Shown piece by piece: positions 42,855 to 50,205 of a stretch of 64,000 nucleotides of DNA. How positions within the stretch are numbered: position 1 is the first letter of the stretch; the number at the start of each line of letters is the position of its first letter. The position numbers were made by a program, and so were the translations under genes. Under the pieces are notes generated by a model. The model was given only the letters and a program-made list of their open reading frames with translations. It made no database searches and was not told the DNA's origin. Source of the DNA: Candidatus Gastranaerophilales bacterium (lineage in GTDB: Bacteria > Cyanobacteriota > Vampirovibrionia > Gastranaerophilales > Gastranaerophilaceae); contig CALUZA010000009.1 of assembly GCA_944325185.1 (NCBI GenBank), positions 1 through 64,000 on the forward strand, given 5' to 3'.

Positions 42855-43997
42855 ATGATAATACTTGAAAAACCTTATGTGTCTGATTTTTTGGTTGAAA
42901 CAATTAAAAAAAATAAATTTAGCGTACTAGAAAATGAAGTTTCCGCTACATTCTTTGCAAAAGATTTTTTGGTTAACCAAAAAGATGCAATAAAATGTAG
43001 TTCGAATGAACTTTTTTATTCAAATTCGGAAAATTCAACAGATTGGATTTTAGATAAATTTCCTTCTTTTGATGTTTCAAAATATATAAAAATAAGCAAA
43101 GACAAGACATTATTCAGAACTATTTTAAAAGAACTTTATCCTGATTTTTATTTTAGAGAAATCTCTATAGAAGAAATTGATTTGATTAATCCTGATGAGT
43201 TGAGTTTTCCTCTTATATTAAAACCTTCTGTCGGTTTTTTGAGTTTTGGCGTTCATCCGATTAAAGATTCTGCGGATTGGAAAAGAGTTTCTAAATTAGT
43301 TAAAGATGAAATAAATAAATTAAAAGGTATTTTTCCTCAAAGTGTTGTAAATTTTGATAAATTTATAATAGAGGAGATGATAGAAGGAGAAGAATATGCG
43401 CTTGACGCATATTTTGATGAAAATGGCGAAGCAACCATATTAAACATTTTTAAACATCCTTTTTTTGATGATAATGACGTTTCTGACAGAGTTTATTTTA
43501 CTTCTAAAAAAATAATTCAGGATTATCATGATAAATTTAAAAGTATGCTTGATAAAATTGGTAAGTGTGCCGGTTATAAAAATTTTCCGTTTCATTTAGA
43601 ATTAAGAACAAACGGTAAAAAAACAATACCTATTGAAATTAATCCTCTAAGATTTTGTGGTTGGTGTATAACCGATATTGCTTATTTTGCTTGGGGTATA
43701 AATGTTTATGAATATTATTTTAAAAAGTTAAAACCTGATTGGGATGAGATTTTTAAAAACATTGATGATTCATATTTTTATTTTACAATGGCAGACATTC
43801 CTTCAGATGTTCAGAAGGATAGAATAAAAAATGTGGATTATGGAAAATATTTGAAAAATATTCAAAATCCGCTTGAAGTAAGAAAAATTAATCCAAATAA
43901 CAATCCTGTTTTTGCTATTGTTTTTGCAAAAACAAATTCAATCGAGGAAATAAAAAATCTTTTAAAATTGGATATGAGGGATTTTATTGTTTTTTAA
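42855..43997 (+). CDS. ATP-grasp domain protein of unknown substrate
   Basis: This 380-residue protein has an N-terminal alpha/beta domain (about 1-95) followed by an ATP-grasp core. The ATP-binding lysine is in FPLILKPSVGFLSFG, the hinge in FIIEEMIEGEEYALDAYF, and metal ligands in EINPLRFCGW. This superfamily joins a carboxylate to an amine or similar nucleophile using ATP. The substrate is unknown; the core resembles the carbamoyl-phosphate/biotin carboxylase-like ATP-grasp fold. It follows the HD-GYP gene across a hairpin. Its 3' end overlaps the convergent ribonucleotide-reductase-like gene by 14 bases. No peptide-precursor or ligase partner is seen. Confidence 0.82.
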   Translation: MIILEKPYVSDFLVETIKKNKFSVLENEVSATFFAKDFLVNQKDAIKCSSNELFYSNSENSTDWILDKFPSFDVSKYIKISKDKTLFRTILKELYPDFYFREISIEEIDLINPDELSFPLILKPSVGFLSFGVHPIKDSADWKRVSKLVKDEINKLKGIFPQSVVNFDKFIIEEMIEGEEYALDAYFDENGEATILNIFKHPFFDDNDVSDRVYFTSKKIIQDYHDKFKSMLDKIGKCAGYKNFPFHLELRTNGKKTIPIEINPLRFCGWCITDIAYFAWGINVYEYYFKKLKPDWDEIFKNIDDSYFYFTMADIPSDVQKDRIKNVDYGKYLKNIQNPLEVRKINPNNNPVFAIVFAKTNSIEEIKNLLKLDMRDFIVF

Positions 43998-45321
43998 ATA
44001 CGGTTATTCCTTTTAAATTGTATTCTTTTGCTTTTCTTATTATTGTATCAATGTCTTTAGGGGATGCATTTTTGTCGAGTCGGATTGTTGTTGAAATGTT
44101 GCCATCAAGATATTTTTGGGCGGTTTGCAGCACCATGAGCTTTTTTGTGTAATCTGTTTTGTTTTTTGCTAACGGCTCTATAGCAGGAGTGGTGTTTAAG
44201 ATTCTTGAGGTTGTGCCTGTTGGCGATATTGCCATTTTTATGTTGTTTTTTTGAACCTCTTTTTTTATTGTTTTTAATATGTTTTCCAGTAGTTCATTTG
44301 CTTGAATACTGCCATAATTCAACTTAAAAAGGTTTAAAAGTTTTTGATAGCCCAGAATTCCGATGTATCCGTTATTGTCCAGTTTCGACATTGCTTTTGA
44401 TATTAAAGAGGCTGCTTTTTCAAGTTTTTTATAATCTATACCGTCGTTAAAATTATAAAATTTAGAAAGGTTTATGTGTGCTAAAGTAAGCCCTTCGTTT
44501 GCTTTTAAGGGGGCTGCTGCGCAGCAATCACAAATATAGTCTTTATTATTTGAAAAAATGATTCCCGGCTCTCCTTTTTTTAACATGGAATTTATTAGAG
44601 TTAAATAAATTTCTTTGGCGCTTATATTTATTCCGTTGGTTGTCGTTATATATTCGTTACCGTCAGCTTTTTTAAGAAAGTCATCAGGTATAACGACCGA
44701 TAAATCAAAGCACCAATCGTTATAATTTTCTTCATTTTTAAGTTGAATAAAATCAATAATTTTAGGATGATATATGCTTAAAAGAGCTATTCCTGCAGGC
44801 GGACGCTTAACATTTCCCTTTTTTTGCCTAAATAAAAAATACGAATTGATTTCTCTGATTATTTTTATCGGATCATCAAAATTTGAAAAATTTATTCCGA
44901 CACCTTCTTCGTTTTTTATATGTTCTTCTAAAACTAACAGATTTTTAGCTATATTGTCGCTGGGATTAAGTGATAAGCCAATAGCGCTATAGGGCTTTTT
45001 GGAATTTACAATGCCTTTATATGCAGACGTTGAAAAGGCTATGCACCCCTCGTTTAAAAGCTTTGTAAAATCTTTTTGTTCTTGAGGATTTAGAAAAAAA
45101 GTTTGCGAAATTTTTTTAAAAAAATCTTCTAAATTCTCATTTTTTCCTAAAATCCCTCTTTCTATAAGATAAAGGGAGTTTATGTTTTGTTTTATAATAT
45201 TATTTTGAGTTGATATATTTGAAAAATTTATTGATTGTTGATTGTAATTTTTAAAAATTTCGTTTTTTTGTTTTGCTAAATTGTTTTTGCAATTAACCGG
45301 TGTGATTTTTTCTATTTTCAT
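43984..45321 (-). CDS. Class II ribonucleotide-reductase-like pseudoenzyme
   Basis: This 445-residue protein aligns by eye with the catalytic barrel of B12-dependent or class I reductases: GVGINFSNFDDP, GIALLSIYHPKIIDFIQLK, KKGEPGIIFSNN, LTLAHINLSKF, AISPTGTTSRILNTTPAIEP, and the ending YNLKGITVFKK. It is far shorter than active enzymes (600-900). Key residues are changed: first redox Cys to Ile114 (YSAIGLSL), active Asn to Asp265, Glu to Ala269, second redox Cys to Leu278. The radical Cys267 remains. It should not reduce ribonucleotides. The N-terminal 50 residues (SINFSN) are extra. ATGA overlap couples it to scpB. Confidence 0.78.
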   Translation of the reverse strand: MKIEKITPVNCKNNLAKQKNEIFKNYNQQSINFSNISTQNNIIKQNINSLYLIERGILGKNENLEDFFKKISQTFFLNPQEQKDFTKLLNEGCIAFSTSAYKGIVNSKKPYSAIGLSLNPSDNIAKNLLVLEEHIKNEEGVGINFSNFDDPIKIIREINSYFLFRQKKGNVKRPPAGIALLSIYHPKIIDFIQLKNEENYNDWCFDLSVVIPDDFLKKADGNEYITTTNGINISAKEIYLTLINSMLKKGEPGIIFSNNKDYICDCCAAAPLKANEGLTLAHINLSKFYNFNDGIDYKKLEKAASLISKAMSKLDNNGYIGILGYQKLLNLFKLNYGSIQANELLENILKTIKKEVQKNNIKMAISPTGTTSRILNTTPAIEPLAKNKTDYTKKLMVLQTAQKYLDGNISTTIRLDKNASPKDIDTIIRKAKEYNLKGITVFKKQ

Positions 45322-45830
45322 AAATTTTTAAAGTCTTCAGCTGCGTCCAGCTTTTTAACCAATGCTTTTATATCTCCTTTTAATTTGAAATATTCTTGAA
45401 ATTTCTTTGTAGTTCTGATATTAAAGCTTCTTCCGTTTTTATCTTTTGTTTTTGAGATTAAACCTTGTTCCAATAATTCTGCTATATGTTCATAAGCATT
45501 TGAGCGCAATTCTTTTAGGGTTGTTTGCCTGATTGGTTCTTTTAGTGCAATAACTGTTAGCGTTTTTAAAACCGCAGGTTTTAATTCTACGGGGCAAAGT
45601 TTTTCAACTATGTCCATGTGTTCTGCTTTAACTTGTATAATATAGCCGTCTTCGTCGTCTATTTCCAAAGCTCCATTTCTCGATGAATAATCGAACATTA
45701 AGTCTAATAGCGCGTCGGTTATTTTTTCTTCTTCTATTCCAAGTATTTCAGCTATTTCAATAGGCTGCATTGCTTTTGAAGTTATAAATAAAACAGCTTC
45801 AACTTTTGCTTTTAGGGTTTCCATTTCCAT
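45318..45830 (-). CDS. scpB: Segregation and condensation protein B
   Basis: This 170-residue protein has two winged-helix domains: AVLFITSKAMQPIEIAEILGI in the first and LKTLTVIALKEPIRQTTLKEL plus GLISKTKDKNGRSFNI in the second. ScpB dimers bind ScpA and help SMC compact and separate chromosomes. The second domain contains the family RG..s-like region in altered form. Its start overlaps the scpA stop by one base (TAATG). It is followed by the ribonucleotide-reductase-like gene with a four-base overlap. Confidence 0.93.
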   Translation of the reverse strand: MEMETLKAKVEAVLFITSKAMQPIEIAEILGIEEEKITDALLDLMFDYSSRNGALEIDDEDGYIIQVKAEHMDIVEKLCPVELKPAVLKTLTVIALKEPIRQTTLKELRSNAYEHIAELLEQGLISKTKDKNGRSFNIRTTKKFQEYFKLKGDIKALVKKLDAAEDFKNL

Positions 45831-46699
45831 TATTCTATTTCAACCTCTTTTTCTTTTGCCTTTTGAACGTATAATTTTCCGTAGAAATCTTTTTGTGATA
45901 TTTCATATTCTTCTTCACGTGCTAAAAATAAAAGCGCAATGAATGCGGAGCTTCTATCAAACCCTAGCAGGCAAAGCTCTCTTAATTCTATGTTTTCTTC
46001 TCTCGATAAAATTTGGCATAAATTTTGCCTCATTTTTTCAACAACTTCTTCAACATATTCTTCATGGGCTAATTCTTTTATTTCTGCTGCTTTTAAGCTT
46101 GAATAGTTTCTAACCCTGCGTTCTTTTCTGTCTAATGCGCTTTTGATTGCATATTTTTTTTCTAAATCTTCGTAAAATTGAATGTGTCTTATTAAGTCTT
46201 TTAATGTTACATTTCTTTTTCTGTTTAAACGAACGGACGTTCTTCTTTGTAAAACTTCATCAAAGGAAACTATGTTGTTTGTCGGAATTTGCATTTGTTC
46301 ATAGTCTGCTTCAAAGTTGTCATCTTCAAAATAGTCCATAGGTTCGGGGTCAAAATCGTTTATCGAAATGCCTTGCAGAATGTCTGATTTTATTTTTAAA
46401 AGTGTAGATGAAAAAAGTATGGCTTTTCCGACGGATCTGAGATTGTCTTGCTTTAATTCCGAAATTCTTTTCATATATTTGTCATATAAATCAACAATAT
46501 CTATATTCCAAGGGTCAAGTTTGCCTTCTCTTACAAGGTCTAAAATTATTTCAATCGCATCGGTTTGGATATCTTTTTTAATCCCCGAACGAGAAATAAA
46601 TTCGGTATTCGAACCGAAATCAACAGTTCCGTCAAGAACTTTGATTTCATCATAATTTAATTTTTTATTTGAATAAAAATCACTAACTGCTTCTGTCAT
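45830..46699 (-). CDS. scpA: Segregation and condensation protein A
   Basis: This 289-residue kleisin joins the SMC heads and ScpB. The signature N-terminus is TDAIEIILDLVREGKLDPWNIDIVDL. GKAILFSSTLLKIKSDILQG follows, and then an acidic linker (about 115-140). The C-terminal winged helix has SSAFIALLFLAREEEYEISQ. An extra 30 residues (MTEAVSDFYSNKKLNYDEIK...) precede the usual start. It overlaps smc by one base (TAATG), so smc-scpA-scpB form one translational unit, unlike E. coli, which uses MukBEF. Confidence 0.95.
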   Translation of the reverse strand: MTEAVSDFYSNKKLNYDEIKVLDGTVDFGSNTEFISRSGIKKDIQTDAIEIILDLVREGKLDPWNIDIVDLYDKYMKRISELKQDNLRSVGKAILFSSTLLKIKSDILQGISINDFDPEPMDYFEDDNFEADYEQMQIPTNNIVSFDEVLQRRTSVRLNRKRNVTLKDLIRHIQFYEDLEKKYAIKSALDRKERRVRNYSSLKAAEIKELAHEEYVEEVVEKMRQNLCQILSREENIELRELCLLGFDRSSAFIALLFLAREEEYEISQKDFYGKLYVQKAKEKEVEIE

Positions 46700-49600
46700 T
46701 ATTCATCTTTCAATTTAATTCCGGAGATTTTAGTTACACCTTTGTCTTTTTGTGTAACCCCTATCATCCTGTCGGCATTATCCAGCATTGGTTTTCTTAA
46801 AGAAACAACAACAAATTGTGCTGTTTTTGATTGTTTTGTTATAATGGATGCTAATCTTTCGACATTTGGTCCATCCAAGTGCATATCTACTTCATCGAAC
46901 GCATAAAATGGTGAAGGCAGATATTTTTGTATTGCAAATACAAAAGCAAGTGCGGTGAGAGATTTTTCTCCCCCTGACATACCTGCAAGCTTTTGGTTTT
47001 TCTTATCTCTGATATTTGCTTCAAATGTTAATCCACCCGAGAAAGGATCGTTTTCATTTTCTAAAATCAAAGTACCTTCGCCTTCCGAAAGTTGCGCAAA
47101 TACTTCTCTAAAGTTTTTATTTATAGCGTTATATGCTTCGAGGAAGGTTTCTTTTTTGAGGTTTTGATAACCGTTCATACGTGTTTTTATTTCATTTTTT
47201 TCATTTTCAAGGGTCAAAACCTTTTCTTTATACGAATTTTGCCTTTCCATAACTTCGTCATATTCTGTTAAAGCCCGCATATTAACAGGTTCCAATTCAT
47301 CCATCTTCTTTTGTAATTTAGAGATTTTGGATGTAATTTCTTCAAGCGGTATTTCTGTTTGTTGAAGCTCCTTGGGGTTGATTCCTGCAGCTTCAAATTC
47401 TTTTAGTATGTTTTCTAATATAGGTTCAAGCTCTCTTCTTCTTGCTTTGTAGCTTTCTTCCTGTTCGAGCAGTCTTTCTATGTTGTCTTGTATTTTATTT
47501 TTGTCTGATTTGAATGCAAGAAGTGCTTCTTGAAGTTCATCTCTTTTGTTTTGAAGCTCTACAAGATTTTTGCCAAGTTCTTCTATTTCTTTTTCCAGAA
47601 TTTCAAGTTCTTTTTTAACTTTTTCAATTTCAAGGCTAAATTGTTCGCGTTCTGTTTTTAGATTTTCATTATCTTTGCCTAGTTTTTCTATGTCAGCTTG
47701 TCGAGTCAAAATTTGGCTTTGTTGAAATTTAATTTGATTTTCATCTTTTTCGATGTCGTTTTCAACTGTCATGATTGATTTTTCGATAGTTTTTATTTCT
47801 TCTTCAACACCGTTCGTTTTTTCTTTTAGTTTTTTTAATTCGCCTTCGTCAATTAATTTTTCTACATCTTCAAGATTTTTTTGAACTTCCTGAACTTTGT
47901 CATTTAGTTTTATGTGGCGGCTTTCAAATAAATCCAGTTCTTTTGAAAGCTTGGAATTCCTGTCTTTTAAGGTTTTTAAATCGTTTTTACCTTTTTCTAT
48001 TACGTCTGATGCCTGTTCATTGTTTGAGATTAAATTTTTAAGTTCAATTTTTGCTGAATTGAGTGCATTTAGTGCGTTTGAGTGTTTTTGTCTTATATCA
48101 TTTAATCTTCTTTCTAAATCTTTTTCTTTTTGATTTAAATTTTTTGCGTTTTCTTCAATATTTGTAAGTAACTTTTTATATTTTTCAAGTTCTTTTTCTT
48201 GGCTTTTGTCAAAGAATGACGTATTTTTCTTTCTTGCCCCACCTGTGATAAGACCGCTTTTTTCTGTAATATCTCCTTCAAGAGTAACAACTCTGTATTT
48301 TCCTGCAAGTTTTTTTGCAGTGTTTTCGTTTTCAACAACAACTGTTTCGCCAAGTGCGAAATAAAACGCATCGATATATTTATCATCAAAATCGATTAGG
48401 TTTATGGCAAAGTCTATTACCCCCTTTTCTTTTGGGAGTGCCATTCTTGTGGGGGCTTTTTTAATTATGCTTAAAGGTATAAAAGAGGCTCTATCTCTAC
48501 CTTGGGAACGCAAAACCTGAATTGCTTTATAGGCAGTATCTTGATCATCTACAACAATGGAATATGCTCTTGCGCCCATTGCTACATTTATTGCGTCAAT
48601 ATATTCACTTTCAACATCTGCTAACTGCGCAAGAGGTTCATGGACTCCTTGAATGTTTGCCCTCATAACTGTTTCAATCCCTGCGCCTTGCCCTACAGAT
48701 TTGTATGCGTTTTTGTTTGCATTTAAAATTGCAATTCTTTTTTCTGCTTGTTGAATTTGATAGAAGGCATCTTCTTTTTGTGTTTTTGTTTTATCAAGTT
48801 CTTCGAATGTTTTTGTTTGCAGAACTTTAAAATCCTTAACTTCGTTTTCCAGTGTTTCAATTTGGAGATTTAATTTATCTTTTTCTGCTTCAAAAACTTT
48901 TGCAGAGTTTAAAAGCTTATCCATTGTTTCTTTTGTTGTTTGGATTTTTTCTTCGTTATTTTTGTATTCATTTTCCAATGGAAGCTGTTCTTTTATTAAT
49001 TGAGTTTCCTCATCTTTAAGATTTTCCAGCTCTTTTCTTAATTTGTTTCTATTTTGAATATGTTCATCTGCGGATTTATTAAGACCCGTCATTTCGCTAA
49101 TTATTTTGTTTAGTTCAGCTTTTTTTTCTTCCAAGGCTTTGTTTAGATTTTCAAGTTCTGCGTTTTTATTTTCAATGGACTTTTTAAATTCTTCTATTTT
49201 TTGTTTTTGAACTTCTATTCCGTTTTTATAGCTTTCAATTGATTTTAAATTATCAAGTGTTGTTTTTTTAACTTGTGCTATTGCAGATTTTTTTCTTTCA
49301 ATTTCGCCCTTTTTTTCTTCTGCTGTTTTTTTGACTTCAAGTTGTTTTTCTTCCCCTTGTGCCTTAACTTGAGCATTTATTTCATCATATTTGACTTTTG
49401 TGTCGTTTATTTGAGATTCTGCCTCTTTTAATTTTTGGTTTAATTCTTTCTTTTCTTTTGTTGCAGCAAGAATATTCTGATGCACTAATTCCAAGGAACG
49501 AACAGTGTCAAAATATTTTGCGCTTTGTATTTGGTTTTCAAGAGCTGTTTTTTCATCTTTATATTTTTTGTATTTTAAGGCGACTTCCCGTTCTTCTTTT

Positions 49601-50205
49601 AGCTGTTCTATTCTGTTATCTATTTCGCCCATCAGGATGTTTGTGTTTGCAACTCTATCTTCAACACTTTGTATTTGTTCGCTCGCAAGTGTTATTTTTC
49701 TGTCAAAATCAGCAGTTCCTGCTATTTCATCTATGATTTTTCTTCTTTCCGTTGGGGAGCATTTTGTAATTTCTGTTACATCACCCTGCATCATAACATT
49801 GTAGCTATTTGGAGAGATATTGTATTTTTCAAGTTCAAGATGAATTTGAGTTAGAGTACAGGGTTTGTCATTATAGTAGTAATTTGATTGGACTCCGTTT
49901 TTACCTTTTTTTATATATCTTTTTACCGAAAATTCGTTTGCTGTGTTGCCGTTTTCATCTCCAAACGTAACTTTTACAGATGCTTCATTGCGTTTATTAT
50001 GGTTTGTGATTAAATCAGCAACTCCTTGTTCTGAACGCAGAGTACGCGCAGTAGTAAGTCCTAGTGCAAAAAGTACACTATCAATTATATTGCTTTTGCC
50101 TGAACCGTTAGGTCCCGAAATTGCGGTAAACCCTTCAAGTAACGGCACAGTAACTTTATTTGCAAAAGATTTAAAATTGTCTATTTCTATTTCTTTTATG
50201 TACAT
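46699..50205 (-). CDS. smc: Chromosome segregation protein SMC
   Basis: This 1168-residue protein has an N-terminal ATPase half with GPNGSGKSNIIDSVLFALG and LTQIHLELEKYNISPNSYN. Two long coiled coils follow, split by a hinge (about 510-660, with GVIDFAINLIDFDDKYIDAF). The C-terminal half has the signature LAGMSGGEKSLTALAFVFA and Walker B PFYAFDEVDMHLDGPN. It forms the ring that holds and extrudes DNA loops. A likely promoter lies upstream (50238-50267). It heads the smc-scpA-scpB operon. Confidence 0.98.
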   Translation of the reverse strand: MYIKEIEIDNFKSFANKVTVPLLEGFTAISGPNGSGKSNIIDSVLFALGLTTARTLRSEQGVADLITNHNKRNEASVKVTFGDENGNTANEFSVKRYIKKGKNGVQSNYYYNDKPCTLTQIHLELEKYNISPNSYNVMMQGDVTEITKCSPTERRKIIDEIAGTADFDRKITLASEQIQSVEDRVANTNILMGEIDNRIEQLKEEREVALKYKKYKDEKTALENQIQSAKYFDTVRSLELVHQNILAATKEKKELNQKLKEAESQINDTKVKYDEINAQVKAQGEEKQLEVKKTAEEKKGEIERKKSAIAQVKKTTLDNLKSIESYKNGIEVQKQKIEEFKKSIENKNAELENLNKALEEKKAELNKIISEMTGLNKSADEHIQNRNKLRKELENLKDEETQLIKEQLPLENEYKNNEEKIQTTKETMDKLLNSAKVFEAEKDKLNLQIETLENEVKDFKVLQTKTFEELDKTKTQKEDAFYQIQQAEKRIAILNANKNAYKSVGQGAGIETVMRANIQGVHEPLAQLADVESEYIDAINVAMGARAYSIVVDDQDTAYKAIQVLRSQGRDRASFIPLSIIKKAPTRMALPKEKGVIDFAINLIDFDDKYIDAFYFALGETVVVENENTAKKLAGKYRVVTLEGDITEKSGLITGGARKKNTSFFDKSQEKELEKYKKLLTNIEENAKNLNQKEKDLERRLNDIRQKHSNALNALNSAKIELKNLISNNEQASDVIEKGKNDLKTLKDRNSKLSKELDLFESRHIKLNDKVQEVQKNLEDVEKLIDEGELKKLKEKTNGVEEEIKTIEKSIMTVENDIEKDENQIKFQQSQILTRQADIEKLGKDNENLKTEREQFSLEIEKVKKELEILEKEIEELGKNLVELQNKRDELQEALLAFKSDKNKIQDNIERLLEQEESYKARRRELEPILENILKEFEAAGINPKELQQTEIPLEEITSKISKLQKKMDELEPVNMRALTEYDEVMERQNSYKEKVLTLENEKNEIKTRMNGYQNLKKETFLEAYNAINKNFREVFAQLSEGEGTLILENENDPFSGGLTFEANIRDKKNQKLAGMSGGEKSLTALAFVFAIQKYLPSPFYAFDEVDMHLDGPNVERLASIITKQSKTAQFVVVSLRKPMLDNADRMIGVTQKDKGVTKISGIKLKDE

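Follow-up and report, generated by a model that had tools for sequence, protein, structure and literature searches.

What does a protein resembling the catalytic subunit of ribonucleotide reductase (RNR) do in the condensin operon of a Gastranaerophilales bacterium, when most of the residues needed for ribonucleotide reduction have been replaced? The question is raised by a gene lying directly behind scpB in the window, i.e., the whole stretch of DNA analysed here (64,000 nucleotides). The features of the locus are as follows:

42855..43997, plus strand: ATP-grasp gene, convergent with the RNR-like gene, with a 14-nt overlap of the 3' ends
43984..45321, minus strand: short RNR-like protein, a proposed pseudoenzyme of 445 aa, with a predicted disordered tail (residues 1–44) and barrel fold (residues 45–445)
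44206..44226, minus strand: equivalent of the substrate-phosphate loop, residues 366–372 (S-P-T-G-T-T-S), conserved; coordinates computed from the open reading frame
44509..44532, minus strand: finger-loop codons, residues 264–271 (C264-D265-C266-C267-A-A-A-P), with NPCGE changed to D-x-C-A-A; coordinates computed from the open reading frame
45318..45830, minus strand: scpB, the stop codon overlapping the start of the RNR-like gene (ATGA); match to TIGR00281 above its cut-off
45830..46699, minus strand: scpA, overlapping scpB by 1 nt
46699..50205, minus strand: smc, sharing 1 nt with scpA; in relatives, scpA is preceded by SMC orthologues

The four genes smc, scpA, scpB and the RNR-like gene thus overlap one after another, and the last of them starts with ATG and encodes 445 aa. 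The original prediction, made from the window sequence, had pointed to the ATGA overlap with scpB and to the convergence with the ATP-grasp gene. Both were confirmed: scpB ends at 45318, and the 3' overlap with the ATP-grasp gene covers 14 nt (window 43984–43997). In all 24 homologous loci, as in the window, the RNR-like gene started between −4 and +6 nt from the scpB stop codon. In 17 of the 24 loci (L037–L060), an ATP-grasp gene converges on the RNR-like gene, and the tail-to-tail overlap of the two is conserved there at 11, 14 or 23 nt. The RNR-like gene was absent 3' of scpB in all 18 scpB loci read from other genera and families, where other genes were found at this place.

The protein belongs to the catalytic barrel family of class I and class II RNRs (PF02867). 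The Pfam model was matched with 79.7 bits (cut-off 23.9; E-value 2.4e-22), and all 25 homologues matched it as well. The best NCBIfam model was that of adenosylcobalamin-dependent NrdJ (NrdJ_Z, TIGR02504), with a score of 102.8 bits, far below the equivalog cut-off of 399.95. Among sequences of the PDB, the top match was NrdJ of Thermotoga maritima (1xje), with an E-value of 1.6e-11 for the single sequence and 7e-26 for the profile. The AlphaFold2 model obtained with 25 homologues from the genus (pLDDT 86.6, pTM 0.83) consisted of disordered residues 1–44 followed by alternating strands and helices. Foldseek comparison of the model with the PDB yielded NrdJ structures as the best matches (E-value about 1e-21; TM-score by query length 0.70–0.72), and class I R1 of yeast and human reached a TM-score by query length of up to 0.78. 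The proposed homology to the reductase barrel is borne out by these matches. Compared as a whole fold, the predicted structure agrees with NrdJ, so that the objection of a non-barrel structure falls away. The length had been put at about half that of active enzymes; it is in fact about two thirds. Canonical NrdJ of the order has 646–786 aa (typically about 660) and T. maritima NrdJ has 644 aa, whereas the open frames of the homologues are about 370–455 aa long in 26 of 28 species of the genus.

Residue positions were mapped by alignment to canonical NrdJ of the order and to T. maritima NrdJ, and 25 homologues were compared. The first redox cysteine (C225 in Escherichia coli, C134 in T. maritima) was replaced by I114 (I, V, L, K or T among the homologues), the catalytic asparagine (N437/N320) by D265 (Asp in 25/25), the catalytic glutamate (E441/E324) by A269 (Ala in 22, Thr in 3), and the second redox cysteine (C462/C333) by L278 (Leu in 22, Phe in 3). 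The radical cysteine (C439/C322) corresponded to C267 and was retained in all 25 homologues. The alignment therefore agrees with the original prediction, in which Cys225, Asn437, Glu441 and Cys462 were read as Ile, Asp, Ala and Leu, with Cys267 remaining. The count across Gastranaerophilales gave the same residue changes in 25/25 homologues and coupling to scpB throughout the genus (24 loci and the window).

Invariant among the 25 homologues were D265, C267, C204, S97, N144, R173, P367 and S372. The phosphate loop (PTGT.S...IEP) was well conserved: P367 and S372 were found in 25/25, G369 in 24/25, and T or S at position 368 in 23/25 homologues. Compared with canonical NrdJ, segments were deleted immediately N-terminal to the PTGT loop and past IEP. 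The C-terminal cysteine relay was missing: the final 40 residues of the window protein contain no cysteine, whereas canonical relatives end in a Cys-rich stretch. Around the radical cysteine, most homologues had C-D-x-C (residues 264–267; 44521–44532, minus strand), and the canonical sequence there is T-N-P-C. The C264xxC267 motif of the finger loop could possibly form a disulfide or a metal site.

Class I and class II RNRs require a cysteine pair, and a glutamate acts as the base; most class III RNRs require one redox cysteine, formate, and a glycyl radical (PMC4390871). The glycyl-radical motif RxxG[YF] was not found in the window protein, and the RNR-like protein had no match to PF13597 (NrdD). 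Since the residue sets of classes I, II and III are all incomplete, there would be no known route to ribonucleotide reduction, and we infer from the residues that this reaction should be impossible for the protein by known mechanisms. It is a PF02867 member that lies outside the definitions of RNR classes I, II and III. A functional class II RNR was rejected, with the redox cysteines, Asn, Glu and the adenosyltransferase all missing.

In its Gastranaerophilales genus, 26 of 28 genomes encoded the RNR-like protein and no other PF02867 match. When 84,980 species genomes were scanned, 24 close relatives came up, recorded as Candidatus Gastranaerophilales (18), Cyanobacteria bacterium (1), and uncultured bacterium (5). 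For ten pairs, dN/dS was 0.10–0.22 in the core, 0.21–0.78 in the disordered tail, and 0.00–0.05 in scpB; the lower values of the core than of the tail show purifying selection on the fold. The protein evolved far faster than ScpB (identity of 42–61% vs. 82–98%). An N-terminal 'F.G' leader motif, supposed to be common in the order, was not enriched within the 50 N-terminal residues of 576 open reading frames and was discarded. Two genus members lacked the gene: in G272, scpB abuts the ATP-grasp gene, and in G095, both the RNR-like and the ATP-grasp genes were missing at scpB. Both genomes nested inside the genus in the SMC+ScpA+ScpB tree, in which some inner supports were low; the most likely history is therefore presence of the gene at the root of the genus, followed by two losses.

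The best explanation of these data, which we are about equally ready to accept and to doubt, is a genus-specific RNR pseudoenzyme that responds to nucleotides and/or thiols and has SMC-ScpAB as its likeliest partner, with ligand, partner and function as we infer them. Of the two functions proposed earlier, a nucleotide-binding sensor and new radical chemistry, the sensor would, from the sequence, be the best choice. The protein would no longer reduce ribonucleotides; the former substrate pocket would accommodate a nucleotide (NDP/NTP or dNTP), and/or the C264-x-x-C267 finger loop together with the invariant Cys204 would sense thiol oxidation. The bound or thiol state would be relayed to a protein partner, most likely SMC-ScpAB, which is encoded alongside, and the role of the protein would be to tie chromosome organisation to nucleotide supply, with dNTP synthesis itself carried out by class III NrdD and NrdG. 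The complete chain, from sensing of nucleotide level and/or thiol state through action on SMC-ScpAB to coupling of dNTP supply with chromosome organisation, is tentative and rather doubtful as a whole. An invariant radical cysteine is unexpected for nucleotide binding alone, and therefore an extra role, e.g., that of a thiol switch, is needed. In Bacillus subtilis without smc, dNTP depletion by hydroxyurea partly restores viability, although the authors caution about other effects of hydroxyurea (PMC4634966); a functional link between dNTPs and SMC is therefore plausible. Further points against this explanation are that two members of the genus are viable without the RNR-like protein, and that its evolution is much faster than that of ScpB, which is unusual for a tight ScpAB subunit. 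Operon membership alone may reflect expression needs.

The partner of the pseudoenzyme could instead be NrdD or another protein of nucleotide metabolism, the linkage to scpB merely setting its expression together with the replication/segregation operon. Class III NrdD was found in 27 of 28 genus genomes, with an NrdG-like protein encoded beside it in G000, and no class I or class II RNR other than the RNR-like protein was detected in the 28 genomes. NrdD is the sole working RNR of the genus, and it provides the dNTPs in the absence of class II RNR and corrinoid adenosylation. Mixed functions are common in bacterial operons. However, five other genera (g3, g15, g16, g20 and g22) depend on NrdD without having the RNR-like protein, and both genus members that lost the RNR-like gene retain NrdD. 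NrdD therefore does not need the RNR-like protein; moreover, the conserved coupling is with scpB and not with nrdD. We regard a partnership with NrdD as not very likely. Among the genomes tested, genera devoid of NrdJ depend on NrdD, and NrdD is itself missing from some genomes that have NrdJ.

Reuse of the barrel solely as a protein-interaction surface, with nucleotide binding abandoned, would agree with the fast sequence change outside the core and with the missing loops and C-terminal part. A precedent is UL45 of cytomegalovirus: this R1 homologue has no activity and interacts with RIP1 and UL48 (PMC5469499). In a pure scaffold, however, the phosphate and finger loops would be free to drift, and both are strongly kept, which makes this explanation unlikely.

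An active radical enzyme would use a thiyl radical on Cys267, with Asp265 as the base replacing Glu441, and would carry out non-reductive chemistry, its substrate being a nucleotide or some other compound. Cys267 and Asp265 are indeed invariant (25/25 homologues), and a finger-loop carboxylate is retained, though shifted by four residues. A source of the radical is, however, hard to find: R2 (PF00268) and the PduO-type corrinoid adenosyltransferase (PF01923) were detected in 0/28 genus genomes, and the CobA-type adenosyltransferase (PF02572) in 0/18 of those tested. In other genera and families, the CobA-type enzyme was present in all 14 NrdJ-bearing genomes tested, and it was absent from all six NrdJ-lacking genomes tested from other genera; this co-occurrence across the tested genomes indicates that, in the family, class II reduction is tied to corrinoid adenosylation. 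The lack of the glycyl-radical motif and of the C-terminal cysteine relay and the deletion of several barrel-adjacent segments also speak against an active enzyme. Radical chemistry at Cys267 would require either uptake of ready-made AdoCbl, which is conceivable, or an activase of a kind not yet seen. The proposal of such chemistry in the original prediction is weakened accordingly, and we consider it improbable.

A decaying pseudogene, recently duplicated from nrdJ of the order, would account for the lost catalytic residues, and canonical nrdJ is common among other genera of the order, but 26 of 28 species have open frames, dN/dS lies far under 1, the locus at scpB is conserved, and the lineage is distinct from that of Gastranaerophilales NrdJ; this leaves the idea hardly any probability. 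The suggestion of a recent decayed copy was rejected on the genus-wide open frames, the low dN/dS (0.1–0.2), the different and conserved locus, and the separate lineage. It was true, as this suggestion anticipated, that homologues elsewhere keep all cysteines: canonical NrdJ of the family retains NPCGE and the Cys tail. The canonical gene, however, sits elsewhere (beside a transporter gene and ileS in three of the loci read) and apparently represents a separate lineage; therefore, its intact cysteines do not indicate recent decay.

The nearest relative outside the genus by score and tree, though not decisively, was a divergent RNR-like protein of 562 aa (L021 1405–3093, identical to L114; genome G273:C59), found once in 383 genomes of the order. 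In the tree, the short family and L021 formed a group separate from canonical NrdJ of Gastranaerophilales, with a support of 92/92 that falls short of the starred level of the tool. Branches of the outgroup tree were long, and its outgroup row L149 may be a wrong-frame open reading frame; only the grouping of the short family with L021 apart from the canonical Gastranaerophilales clade was used, with caution. The 562-aa protein retains the radical cysteine, the first redox cysteine and Glu, has Ser for Asn, Ala for the second redox cysteine and PSCSS in place of the PTGT loop, is not located at scpB, and coexists with canonical NrdJ. A gene resembling a radical SAM protein lies near it in G273, and the NrdD match of this genome is in two pieces (G273:C68:10182–11935), possibly due to a frameshift or an assembly error. 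No other intermediates between the short family and canonical NrdJ were found in the 383 genomes. Phages, plasmids, viral contigs and BFVD contained nothing closer to the RNR-like protein than ordinary RNRs, and a phage or plasmid origin was rejected on this ground. A defence-system protein was also rejected, with no PADLOC match.

The RNR-like protein persists in genomes that no longer have a genuine class I/II enzyme or corrinoid adenosylation, is encoded in the condensin operon, and preserves the radical cysteine without the remainder of the reductase chemistry. It offers a testable case of the fold of an essential enzyme being reused and, possibly, of nucleotide supply being linked to chromosome segregation. 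In the open-access literature, we found no description of this protein or of an RNR pseudoenzyme kept across a bacterial genus.

Among proteins of known structure, the class II NrdJ of T. maritima (1xje/3o0o) is the closest relative in sequence and fold. The two share the order of the barrel, the finger-loop cysteine (C322 = C267), the substrate-phosphate loop, and the LKGITV(F/Y) end; the RNR-like protein has lost the redox cysteines, Asn320, Glu324 and the C-terminal Cys tail and is about 200 aa shorter. No corrinoid adenosyltransferase was detected in its genus (PF01923 in 0/28, PF02572 in 0/18 genomes). Class III NrdD (G000:C27), the working RNR of the genus, belongs to the same 10-stranded barrel superfamily, but it is a glycyl-radical enzyme with NrdG adjacent, matches PF13597 and not PF02867, and is encoded at an unlinked locus. 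Among known proteins, those most similar in kind are the R1 homologues of betaherpesviruses, HCMV UL45 and MCMV M45, RNR large-subunit homologues that have no reductase activity and have been repurposed (PMC5469499); for the RNR-like protein, inactivity is suggested by its residues. UL45 and M45 differ from it in being class I-type viral proteins that act in host signalling, have no linkage to scpB, and are of independent origin.
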